NCBI RefSeq assembly: GCF_038087665.1
Contig: NZ_CP149925.1
Location: 2,418,870-2,482,869, forward strand
Reading direction: 5' to 3'
Length of the DNA stretch: 64,000 nucleotides
DNA from: Gallaecimonas sp. GXIMD4217
GTDB taxonomy: Bacteria; Pseudomonadota; Gammaproteobacteria; Enterobacterales; Gallaecimonadaceae
The translations under genes and the position numbers were made by a program. The notes under the pieces were generated by a model. The model made no database searches. It worked only from the letters and a program-made list of their open reading frames with translations, and had not been told where the DNA came from. How positions within the stretch are numbered: the stretch's first letter is position 1; each line of letters opens with the position of its first letter. Below, in pieces: positions 1 to 2,290 of the stretch.

Positions 1-1233
1 CGCCAGCCAGGCATTGCAATAGGCGGAGGCGGTGCCGTCATCCCGGTCGTAGCCGGCCTCGTCGGCCCCGGGCACGGCCAGGGCCTCCTTGAAGGCCTCG
101 TTCATCTCCCTGGCGCCATGGGCCAGCACTATGCTGGCCCGGCCACCGTCTAGGGCCAGCATCTGGCGGTAGTGGCCGGCCACCCGGGAGAACATGGCGT
201 TGGAGGTAGCCATGGTGGGCAGACCGAAATAGAAACCGTCGGCCCGGCCCGCCGCCAGCAACCTGTGGGCCAGGGCCAGGGCCGCCTCCGTCTTGCCGGC
301 GCCGGTGACATCCTCGAGGATGAAGAGCTGCGGCCCCTCCCCCAGGGGGACCGACTCGGCCCAGCCCTGAAGTGGGGTGGGCCGAAAGCCGTAATGCTCC
401 TGGATGGATCCGAAGGGCTGGACGCTGACGGGCTTGGCAAGATCGGTGGCGGCCAGGGCCCGGGCGGCTATGTCCTTGGCCTGGGGCCAGTACTCGGCCA
501 ACGAAAAGCCCCCGGCCCGGTAGTGGAAGAAGGCACTGTCGGAGCCCACCCAGTCGCTGAGGATGGCCAGGCCAGAGAGGTGCCAGCTCAGTTGCCGGAG
601 CCTGGCCAACCAGTGGCGGTCCGTCATTTTTTCCGGCGGCCAGGACACGGCGAAGAGTCTTGCCAGATCGGCAATAAAGTGCGTGGCTGCATCCAGATCT
701 TGTTCCCGGCAATAGCGGCCGAGCTCGGCCCGTTTGCCATGGGCTATGGGATAGCCGTGATGGCCGAACACCGTATCCAGCAGGCAGTTGAGGCTGTCGA
801 GCAGCGGCGTCGGGCGGCTCAGGTCGGCATCACCCAGGCCAAGCTCAGCGCCGCGGAGCCGGCGGCCCCGGGTGGCCATAAGCCAGAAATACTGGCCCAG
901 CATGTCGTGGCGGGCCCGTCTGGCGTCATAGGCCTGCTCCGGTCTGTGGCTGACCAGGGGGGTACCTGGGAAGGACTTCAGGGCCTGGAAGGCCGATGAG
1001 AACTTGCCGAGATCGTGGAGGGCCAGGGCAAAGGTGAAGATGGCGCGCAGCTCACCCGGGGATAGTTCGAGGAACTGGGCCAGGGAGCGGGTCAGGGGCC
1101 TGTCGTCCGCCAGCAGCTGCCAGCCCACCGCCGCCACGTCCAGGCAGTGGTAGGGCAGCAGGTGGTAGGCGTCGCCTTGGTGGCCTTCCTGCTGCTGGGC
1201 CTTGCCCCAGTAGTGGAAATAGCTGGCTGTCAT
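1..1233 (-). CDS. cas3: Type I-E CRISPR-associated helicase-nuclease Cas3, N-terminal part (gene runs off the left edge)
   Basis: The 411 visible codons start at an ATG preceded by AAGGAG at 6 bp and stay open to base 1, so the 3' half is outside the window. The opening residues HYWGK and HLLPYHCLDVAAV closely match E. coli type I-E Cas3. An HD nuclease domain is visible: H29, HD at 73-74 in LHDLGKF, HH at about 158-159, and a later SDWVGSD. Further on come the helicase Q-motif region, a Walker A variant (EDVTGAGKTEAA) and motif Ia (LPTMATSNAM). Known role of the family: Cas3 is recruited by Cascade to unwind and degrade target DNA. The remaining cas genes and array presumably lie to the left. 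The WYL regulator gene lies 95 bp upstream on the same strand. Subtype I-E is inferred from remembered similarity rather than a search. Confidence 0.93.
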   Translation of the reverse strand, partial: MTASYFHYWGKAQQQEGHQGDAYHLLPYHCLDVAAVGWQLLADDRPLTRSLAQFLELSPGELRAIFTFALALHDLGKFSSAFQALKSFPGTPLVSHRPEQAYDARRARHDMLGQYFWLMATRGRRLRGAELGLGDADLSRPTPLLDSLNCLLDTVFGHHGYPIAHGKRAELGRYCREQDLDAATHFIADLARLFAVSWPPEKMTDRHWLARLRQLSWHLSGLAILSDWVGSDSAFFHYRAGGFSLAEYWPQAKDIAARALAATDLAKPVSVQPFGSIQEHYGFRPTPLQGWAESVPLGEGPQLFILEDVTGAGKTEAALALAHRLLAAGRADGFYFGLPTMATSNAMFSRVAGHYRQMLALDGGRASIVLAHGAREMNEAFKEALAVPGADEAGYDRDDGTASAYCNAWLA

Positions 1234-1295
1234 ATCAGGCTCCTTGCCGCTGTGTTTTTGATCACTTTCCCTGCCCTTTGCCGCTTTCACAATGC

Positions 1296-1309
1296 TGTGC
1301 ATTTGCACA
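1296..1309. promoter_or_regulatory. 14-bp inverted repeat between the WYL regulator and cas3, candidate operator
   Basis: The sequence TGTGCATTTGCACA has perfect 6-bp arms around a TT centre. It sits about 63 bp upstream of the cas3 ATG and 20 bp after the regulator's stop codon. WYL regulators of the CapW/BrxR group are dimers that bind inverted repeats in promoters of the defence genes they control. Operator function here is inferred from position and symmetry only. No convincing sigma70 promoter was assigned in this gap. Confidence 0.45.
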
Positions 1310-1328
1310 TGTCGCCTTTGTTGACAGA

Positions 1329-2168
1329 TCAGGCACCGAACAGCCAGGGCTTGATCTGGTCGGCATTGGCAAGGATCAGCTGCTGGGCGGCGGGGTTGCC
1401 GTCGAGCATCTTGACGTTGACCTGCATCTCCAGGAGCAGGTACTGGGCCAGGGCGGCACGTGTTGCTAGGCGCAGCTCGCCATCGGCCATGCCGTAGTCG
1501 TGGGCCAGGGCCTCCTGCTGGGCGGGGCTGAGCCTGGGATCGGGCTTGAGAAGCAGCTCCACCTGGGTTTGCCAGGCCCTGTCGTCGCCGGCGCCGTGGG
1601 GCGAGGCCTCCAGCAGCTCGGGCGTGCCACGGAAGCGGCTCAGCACGAAGTCGCGGTAGTCCTGGTGTTTTTCGCACCAGGCCCGCAGGTGCCAGCGCAG
1701 GCCAGTGTTGACGAAGGTGTGGGGCACGATGATCCGCCCTTCCCTGCTGGGGTTGGTGACGGACACATAGTCCACCTCCAGGCGGCGCTGCTCGCGTATG
1801 GCCCTGAGCAAGGGGCGGACAAGGGTGGGGGATACGTTACGGGGCGGGTGTTGAAGGGCCTGGTGAGGCAACTGGTAACGGGGCTTTTCCGGCAGTGGAT
1901 GACCGCTTTGGCCGGTCATCCAGTTGAGGTATTCGGCCACGTCGCCGCTGATCTGGCGGCAGCGGAAGCCGCCGGTCACCAGGTGGGCCTTGGCGGAGTC
2001 GCAATAGTGGAGGTGGCCGGGGTAGAGCCGGCGGTATTCACCGATGTCCTTGCTGGCCTGCTGGCGGCTGATGCCAAAGAAGTGCACCAGGTGGCTGGCG
2101 TTGATCTGCCCTTCCCAATAGGCAATCAGTTCGATAAGCCAGAGGCGGCGTTGTGGCGTGGTGTTCAT
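1329..2168 (-). CDS. WYL-domain transcriptional regulator, CapW/BrxR-like
   Basis: A 279-aa protein. Residues about 15-50 form a winged helix-turn-helix (INASHLVHFFGISRQQASKDI). A WYL domain follows at about 115-185, with VPHTFVNTGLRWHLRAWC and YRDFVLSRF; the WYL tripeptide itself reads WHL, as I remember for BrxR-type proteins. The last 80 residues resemble the C-terminal extension of this group. The ATG at 2168 is chosen because AGGAA lies 7 bp upstream; a TTG 48 bp further out has no such site. CapW and BrxR are known regulators of CBASS and BREX defence operons. Here the gene is co-directional with cas3, so it probably regulates the CRISPR-Cas locus. The ligand is unknown. Confidence 0.85.
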   Translation of the reverse strand: MNTTPQRRLWLIELIAYWEGQINASHLVHFFGISRQQASKDIGEYRRLYPGHLHYCDSAKAHLVTGGFRCRQISGDVAEYLNWMTGQSGHPLPEKPRYQLPHQALQHPPRNVSPTLVRPLLRAIREQRRLEVDYVSVTNPSREGRIIVPHTFVNTGLRWHLRAWCEKHQDYRDFVLSRFRGTPELLEASPHGAGDDRAWQTQVELLLKPDPRLSPAQQEALAHDYGMADGELRLATRAALAQYLLLEMQVNVKMLDGNPAAQQLILANADQIKPWLFGA

Positions 2169-2267: not shown

Positions 2268-2290
2268 AAAAAAGCCCGGCATGGCCGGGC
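2268..2290 (-). terminator. Rho-independent terminator after der
   Basis: Read on the minus strand, a perfect 7-bp GC stem (GCCCGGC/GCCGGGC, loop CAT) is followed by six T. It lies 17 bp after the der stop codon and closes the long ndk-to-der gene run before the CRISPR-associated region begins. Confidence 0.9.

Follow-up and report, generated by a model that had tools for sequence, protein, structure and literature searches.

A BrxR/CapW-family WYL regulator gene heads a type I-E cas operon in Gallaecimonas sp. GXIMD4217, with a conserved block, predicted to be its operator, shared by cas operons of several type I subtypes

The closest described relatives of the regulator treated here are BrxR of bacteriophage exclusion (BREX) systems and CapW of cyclic oligonucleotide-based antiphage signalling systems (CBASS). 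CapW represses CBASS from sites that overlap the -10 element (PMC9122588), and BrxR is reported or suggested to be a repressor (PMC9122588, PMC9122589, PMC9122601). The BrxR site covers -51 to -27 (centre about -39) upstream of brxR itself, which lies 10 nucleotides (nt) from the next gene. Here we describe a gene for a WYL-domain protein related to both, located directly upstream of a type I-E CRISPR-Cas operon in a 64,000-nt stretch of Gallaecimonas sp. GXIMD4217 (the window; positions 2418870-2482869 of a 3.35-Mb, single-contig genome). Unlike the arrangement at brxR, the predicted site of the window lies near -60 in the gap between the regulator and the cas genes, and the region ahead of the regulator yielded no site. 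The site forms part of a conserved block that was also found ahead of cas operons of other subtypes.

Pairings of WYL genes with CRISPR-Cas are already in print as passing remarks (PMC9981886, PMC6742469, PMC8523701, PMC9122601, PMC9122588). As in the window, a WYL gene lies upstream of cas3 in the type I-E* system of Serratia, described in a paper which states that WYL proteins had previously been reported only for types I-D and VI-D (PMC9981886), and a WYL gene was included among the I-E genes of Zobellella denitrificans ZD1 (PMC6742469), whose locus is L099 of the present set. The available parts of these two accounts differ from ours in giving no BrxR assignment, operator or link across subtypes. 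In Marinomonas mediterranea a WYL gene is found upstream of an I-F operon, where it is brought up in connection with a CsrA site and a two-component system and not as the regulator (PMC8523701). WYL proteins serve CRISPR-Cas systems of other subtypes in Synechocystis (Sll7009, I-D) and in VI-D, where WYL1 acts on Cas13d (PMC9122601, PMC4012209). In the count of Picton et al. (2022), CRISPR-Cas made up 21 of the 210 systems associated with BrxR within 50 kb on the downstream side (PMC9122601). In the open-licence literature, outside which lie most subscription journals and preprints, the parts available contained no report of a shared operator, a functional test or a unit spanning subtypes. The adjacency by itself would be unremarkable; novelty is added by a conserved block that matches the recognition helix across subtypes and by the absence of any link between the lineage of the regulator and cas subtype. 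What appears to be new is the regulatory unit, comprising regulator, conserved gap block and promoter across subtypes.

The features of the window on which the argument turns are as follows.

1..1233, minus strand: 5' part of type I-E cas3 (ATG at 1233; the rest runs left of the window)
1329..2168, minus strand: gene for a BrxR/CapW-family regulator with winged helix-turn-helix (wHTH), WYL and WCX domains (ATG 2168, TGA 1329, 279 amino acids (aa))
1289..1328, minus strand: 40-nt conserved block, predicted operator with promoter-proximal ACAGnnTTG (28.8 bits, held-out)
1311..1325, minus strand: imperfect palindrome at the core, GTCAA-CAAAG-GCGAC (GT-N11-AC), with 5 of 8 pairs matching around its centre
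1296..1309, minus strand: second, perfect inverted repeat TGTGCA-AA-TGCACA (CCTG..CAG at the same place in many other loci)

The original prediction, made from the window alone, held that a type I-E cas3 was preceded directly and co-directionally by a CapW/BrxR-like WYL gene, and took this to suggest that a CRISPR-Cas locus had adopted the same ligand-responsive switch. The identity and order of the genes were borne out. The cas3 product matched Cas3e of PADLOC (E=1.5e-196) and Cas3_HD of Pfam (2.4e-39), the WYL product matched Pfam WYL at 51.9 bits (cut-off 21.8), and both genes are on the minus strand, separated by 95 nt, with the WYL gene on the upstream side. The cas3 start was placed at ATG 1233 because Cas3e homology starts there, and ATG 2168 was used for the WYL gene; a mechanically made list of open reading frames has earlier GTG/TTG starts for both. 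Extension to the left of the window (locus L005) revealed, as had been anticipated, a complete I-E operon on the same strand in the order cas3-casA-casB-casC-casD-casE-cas1-cas2, in which cas3 encodes 908 aa (L005:15377-18103) and cas8e, cse2, cas7, cas5 and cas6e were all identified. Beyond cas2 lies a CRISPR array of 61-nt period with 81 exact 27-nt repeat cores (L005:4051-9219), and thus at least 81 repeats. The whole cas cluster begins with the WYL gene.

Sequence and structural comparisons indicate that the WYL protein is a BrxR/CapW family member and does not fall in an unrelated subfamily, in agreement with the group to which it had been assigned. Its solved relatives by sequence were two BrxR and three CapW-type proteins: BrxR of Acinetobacter (1.4e-53), the CapW-type 7tb5 (2.7e-48) and 7tb6 (1e-42), CapW 9c5g (2.5e-36), which by its PDB title is a structure bound to single-stranded DNA, and E. 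fergusonii BrxR 7qfz (2e-29). An AlphaFold model (mean predicted local distance difference test score 85.5) gave BrxR or CapW chains as all of its top 15 Foldseek matches, BrxR of Acinetobacter sp. NEB 394 (BREX; 7t8k/7t8l) being the closest solved relative at 36-38% Foldseek identity. Next came the WYL activators PafBC and DriD, which match the fold of the model but are distant in sequence (12-16% identity). Since template modelling scores were moderate (0.48-0.59) and the root-mean-square deviation was about 15 Å, the fold match relies on the Foldseek E-values; the high deviation probably stems from differing domain placement in the single-chain model. With CapW (7tb5, 7tb6, 9c5g) the protein shares the wHTH-WYL-WCX architecture, a His in place of the WYL Tyr and the conserved pocket, and with BrxR the SRQQ residues of the recognition helix. 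Arg35 and Gln37 of this helix correspond to BrxR R38 and Q40 and were invariant in the 19 CRISPR-linked proteins aligned, as were Tyr134, Arg145, Arg158, His160 and Arg178 of the WYL domain. The recognition-helix and ligand-pocket residues of the family were thereby found in the window protein, with BrxR pocket residue H147 replaced by Glu143 in an alignment whose chain numbering is shifted by 3 and was derived by hand. A second BrxR-like WYL protein, of 31% identity, is encoded outside the window in the host genome (L036; G000:C1:2570525-2571262).

Among 394 genomes of the order searched, 138 contained WYL relatives at E<=1e-20. Neighbourhoods were read for 60 of the 63 best matches outside the window's genome and for 80 named genome loci (the best 80 of 579 relatives), giving 141 stretches with that of the window, from which CRISPR-linked loci were chosen by eye. 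A cas gene recognised by BLAST lay downstream on the same strand, directly or a few genes on, in 61; after removal of three second copies (L100, L102, L106; 58 left) and two identical gaps (L128, L131), 56 loci remained, L079 and L084 being read at one WYL gene. The operons behind the WYL gene were of types I-E, I-F (with a variant layout in L050, L057 and L112), I-C and, in a single locus, I-G, in mostly marine-named gammaproteobacteria. PADLOC typing was applied to representatives (Cas1f in L037; Cas3c and Cas8c in L046; Cas8e in L048; Cas7f in L050; Cas3g and Cas8g in L098; Cas3c in L120), and BLAST against these served to type the other loci. With the cas genes as the starting point, where the use of the 83 best listed WYL matches makes all counts lower bounds, at least 17 of the 63 Cas1f loci of the order and at least 8 of the 37 Cas8e loci (one per genome, 36 exceeding the family cut-off) had a co-directional relative immediately upstream. 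The WYL and Cas1f matches were 46-316 nt apart in 16 of the 17 cases and 1,753 nt apart in one, which carries an insertion. Given this recurrence, the adjacency sought in other genomes is conserved and chance adjacency was rejected. Genome G100 was left out of the count; its Cas8e is on one contig and its WYL gene, with a cas3 that is cut off, on another.

Expectation-maximisation alignment of the WYL-cas gaps found the block in 52 of the 56 loci, and in 53 after a wider stretch was scanned, with the consensus.ctgtc.Ag..a.tTtaCCTGtg.ataT..cCaGtaTTG. The block-bearing loci head I-E, I-F and I-C operons and one I-G operon. In a held-out test, each WYL cluster (65% identity, 33 clusters) was omitted in turn and scores were compared with 500 dinucleotide shuffles, the training positions coming from all loci. 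Sites with p<0.01 were obtained in 53 of 56 loci, including the window (28.8 bits, the highest shuffle reaching 6.2), and the floor of 0.002 was attained by 31 of 33 clusters. When the initialisation of the model also excluded the held-out cluster and 200 mononucleotide shuffles were used, 51 of 56 loci and 31 of 33 clusters beat every shuffle (window, 30.6 versus 3.2). With the full model, whose training included the window's own site, this site scored 30.9 bits and the next best in the window, on either strand, 7.4.

The GT-N11-AC core was present in 39 of 53 sites, compared with 2.2 expected and a maximum of 8 in 200 shuffles. The target co-crystallised with BrxR, ATACCGTAAAAATAATTTACTGTAT, in which R38 reads G:C and T:A at positions 6 and 7 (Luyten et al. 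2022, PMC9122589), has the core GTAAA-N5-TTTAC. Many of the cas-gap palindromes take this form and many carry the identical core, as in GGTAAAGTCACTTTACC of L056. Near relatives of the window have GTCGC-N5-GCGAC or mixed forms and the window has GTCAA-N5-GCGAC, the outer GT and AC being retained in all of these. By a descriptive count that ignores kinship, RQQASK recognition helices went with a GCGAC arm in 13 of 16 cases (exceptions L098, L130, L134) and RQQAY or RQQAH helices with a TTTAC arm in 7 of 8 (exception L060), while with helices ending in KY the palindrome was offset by about one base. Together the sequences point to a BrxR-type binding site, the predicted operator of the cas operon.

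The block followed the presence of the WYL gene. Among the 13 cas1f loci with a WYL match, 10 scored 18-40 bits, two of them (L225, L233) outside the training set; L208 (a 31%-identity match), L223 and L229 had no block in the gap. The 17 WYL-less cas1f loci reached at most 3.4 bits in a control drawn from the best 30 of 63 loci, and five WYL-less cas3 loci, a small control, at most 0.4. For the latter, 20 loci were taken from the 29 with Cas8e for which no WYL gene was listed upstream; 12 gave no BLAST cas3, L238 gave a partial cas3 only (scoring at most 2.9 over a long stretch), and partial WYL matches are present in L240 and L242. A general feature of cas promoters is unsupported by these two motif-free sets. 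In L240 (G249), only WYL residues 1-73 were matched upstream of a I-E cas3, together with a 24.1-bit site; L242, with a match to WYL residues 11-84, had no site (2.6 bits).

A general feature of WYL relatives was rejected: among 80 non-CRISPR relatives (83 off-list loci scanned less the second copies L100, L102 and L106, some cut by contig ends) the top scores were only 12.0 (L076), 10.7 (L142, a match on the upstream side) and 8.0 bits (L143). Viral carriage was also considered and rejected; the 13 loci on viral contigs with WYL relatives, several with short flanks, had no cas gene recognised by the references used and no motif. Regions upstream of the WYL gene contained no site above 5.7 bits in the 56 loci (window, -12.4), and an autorepressor layout with the operator over the regulator's own promoter was not found in any of them. 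Outside those 56, L229 has a WYL-cas1f gap of about 12 nt and a weaker motif upstream of the WYL gene (8.9 bits, with 4 of 1000 shuffles as high), possibly an exception with an autoregulatory layout. In the host genome the 17-nt operator pattern was too unspecific for naming other targets (95 matches with <=2 mismatches versus 38 for the reversed pattern).

The relationship between regulator and cas subtype was examined in a tree of 91 proteins, comprising 55 of the 56 CRISPR-linked proteins (L058 was omitted for its insertion), 32 hand-picked from the 80 non-CRISPR relatives and four reference chains, with support from a quick method, the Shimodaira-Hasegawa-like approximate likelihood ratio test (SH-aLRT), only. 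One group (SH-aLRT 92) held 51 of the 55 CRISPR-linked rows plus one cas-less row, L105; L070, L086, L091 and L094 fell outside. Cas subtype changed 24 times on the tree, compared with a mean of 23.4 (range 18-28) in 200 label shuffles, 143 of which gave 24 or fewer, and subtype is therefore without phylogenetic signal on the WYL tree. Pairs of loci displayed the same pattern. The WYL genes of L046 (I-C) and L110 (I-E) are 84% identical and the stretch from the stop codon through operator and promoter 90%, identity in the 600 nt that follow being 30% (48% of aligned bases); in L039 (I-F) and L041 (I-E) the corresponding values are 77%, 89% and 41% (47% of aligned bases). In L048 (G170), a truncated Cas1f start of about 78 residues lies between the WYL gene and the I-E operon (L048:3961-4329), probably the trace of an I-F operon that was replaced by I-E. 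The lack of phylogenetic signal thus suggests that regulator and promoter behave as a subtype-agnostic unit.

Downstream of the palindrome, a sigma70-like cas promoter was predicted from the following hexamers.

1287..1292, minus strand: predicted -35 hexamer TTGTGA of the cas promoter
1264..1269, minus strand: predicted -10 hexamer GAAAGT (17-nt spacer, 3 of 6 to consensus)

Across loci the block ends in ACAGnnTTG, followed at a fixed distance by a -10-like hexamer, often TAnAGT (TTG-N19/20-TAnAGT). The best -10 occurred at a spacer of 16 or 17 in 40 of 53 sites, and the mean match to TATAAT was 3.58 of 6 versus 3.12 (standard deviation 0.10) in shuffles. In the window two -10 candidates tie, GAAAGT at spacer 17 and AGTGAT at spacer 20. 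A stringent sigma70 scan of the window's gap returned no promoter, and the cas promoter is therefore at best weak. With a spacer of 16 or 17 the palindrome centre falls at -60 to -61, and in the window at about -61 if the -10 is 1264-1269. This predicted position is inside the range of -41 to -81 from which activators contact sigma or the C-terminal domain of the RNA polymerase alpha subunit (alpha-CTD) (PMC12340889). Because the site lies upstream of the -35 element, we infer activation in preference to repression.

The WYL protein would accordingly be a dedicated regulator of the neighbouring cas operon. Its dimer would place the winged helices on the palindrome at 1311-1325, in the WYL-cas3 gap and about 60 bp upstream of the predicted cas start, where, acting as a class-I-type activator, it would most likely bring RNA polymerase to the weak promoter TTGTGA-N17-GAAAGT. 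The regulator would be switched on or off by a ligand bound in the WYL/WCX groove. The conserved pocket makes single-stranded DNA from phage infection or DNA damage the first candidate, by analogy with CapW, DriD and PafBC; DriD, PafBC and SiwR are WYL activators, the first two activated by single-stranded DNA (PMC12340889, PMC11804915, PMC10693628). Regulator, operator and promoter would form one unit behind which I-E, I-F, I-C and I-G operons were exchanged. We consider this explanation probable as a whole. Control of cas through the gap site appears very likely, activation in particular is only slightly favoured, and the full picture of a subtype-agnostic dock, with a BrxR-family regulator carrying its own operator and weak promoter and activating whichever cas operon has been swapped in upon sensing single-stranded DNA, is put forward tentatively.

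Several points weigh against this explanation. The block is missing from L070 (which has a variant palindrome), L058 (insertion inside the WYL gene) and L103 (extra genes in between), and L223 has adjacent WYL and cas1f genes with no motif. GT-N11-AC is absent from 14 of 53 sites, and around the common centre anything from 0 to 8 of 8 pairs match (5 in the window), several sites being poorly palindromic. The predicted cas promoter is weak and the 40 sites of spacer 16 or 17 do not include that of the window, hence the placement at -60 could be wrong. The sites of DriD and SiwR cover the -35 or fall in the stretch from there to the -10 (PMC12340889, PMC10693628), unlike the -60 predicted here. 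The second inverted repeat extends to about -37, and a dimer there could block sigma or alpha-CTD. The available parts of the literature searched held no binding or expression report for CRISPR-linked WYL genes, and both BrxR and CapW are the reported or suggested repressors cited above. Of the claim that CRISPR-Cas had taken up the same switch, family and conserved adjacency stand; with the predicted operator upstream of -35, the same direction of control may not hold.

The most serious rival, somewhat less likely, is that the WYL protein represses cas as do BrxR and CapW, covering about -70 to -37 and keeping alpha-CTD or sigma from making contact there until single-stranded DNA releases it. 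Besides the precedent of both relatives (PMC9122588, PMC9122589, PMC9122601), whose repression is stated to last until single-stranded DNA is bound (PMC13373217), the second inverted repeat ending beside the -35 and the autoregulatory layout of the weaker L229 motif would agree with repression. However, the main palindrome is centred about 21 bp farther upstream than the site of BrxR and about 50 bp farther than that of CapW, the poor promoter hexamers are those expected of an activator-dependent promoter, and no site was found upstream of the WYL gene among the 56 loci.

Far less probable is a reading in which the WYL protein leaves the block unbound, the block acting as a hairpin or terminator in the RNA of the WYL gene or being the target of some unrelated factor. 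Some sites fold well (L039 and L042, z below -5) and a T-rich stretch follows the palindrome, but many are unfolded (window, z -1.0; several with positive z) and conservation exceeds the paired positions (G at 20 and 33, TTG). Moreover, the motif tracks WYL presence, its bases follow the recognition helix, and GTAAA-N5-TTTAC is the solved BrxR core. Functionless hitchhiking in defence islands is the weakest candidate, scarcely credible even though BrxR-family genes lie near many defence systems (PMC9122601) and non-CRISPR WYL relatives are common, as order and strand are fixed, the matches lie 46-316 nt apart in 16 of the 17 Cas1f cases and the gap block is conserved across several subtypes.

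For cas operons headed by such WYL genes a predicted regulator, an exact DNA site and a promoter can now be named; the means by which most type I cas operons are turned on are, to our knowledge, little understood. The predicted operator links CRISPR-Cas to the DNA-damage-sensing switches of BREX and CBASS beyond gene neighbourhood. If the control region has indeed been kept while the cas machinery was exchanged, CRISPR-Cas regulation can evolve as a separate module. A dock activated by single-stranded DNA, if true, would couple adaptive immunity to DNA damage, whether phage-induced or of the host, with the sign of the BrxR/CapW switch reversed.

Other observations concern the surroundings of these loci. 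In the window, the WYL gene is separated from the upstream gene by the following feature, and an Rfam scan of L005 gave no match at gathering scores.

2274..2290, minus strand: terminator-like hairpin after der, between the WYL gene and the upstream gene

A transposase-like gene, recognised by eye, interrupts the WYL gene upstream of the I-F operon of L058 (L058:3684-4817). Similar-looking proteins of 345-350 aa are encoded between the WYL gene and cas3 in L116 (9383-10420) and L124 (9013-10065), a I-E and a I-C locus, with no PADLOC match and no Pfam match above cut-off. In many Halieaceae and related genomes (L129, L132 and most of L137-L175, not L141), BrxR-like WYL genes have varied neighbours and no recognised cas gene. 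At L076 (3963-7157), a non-CRISPR WYL relative heads a helicase-like gene of 1,064 aa, with the 12.0-bit weaker motif in the gap. At the end of the Gallaecimonas array distal to cas2 (L005:3983-4479), a 60-nt sequence is duplicated with 97% identity, flanking a break in the repeat spacing.

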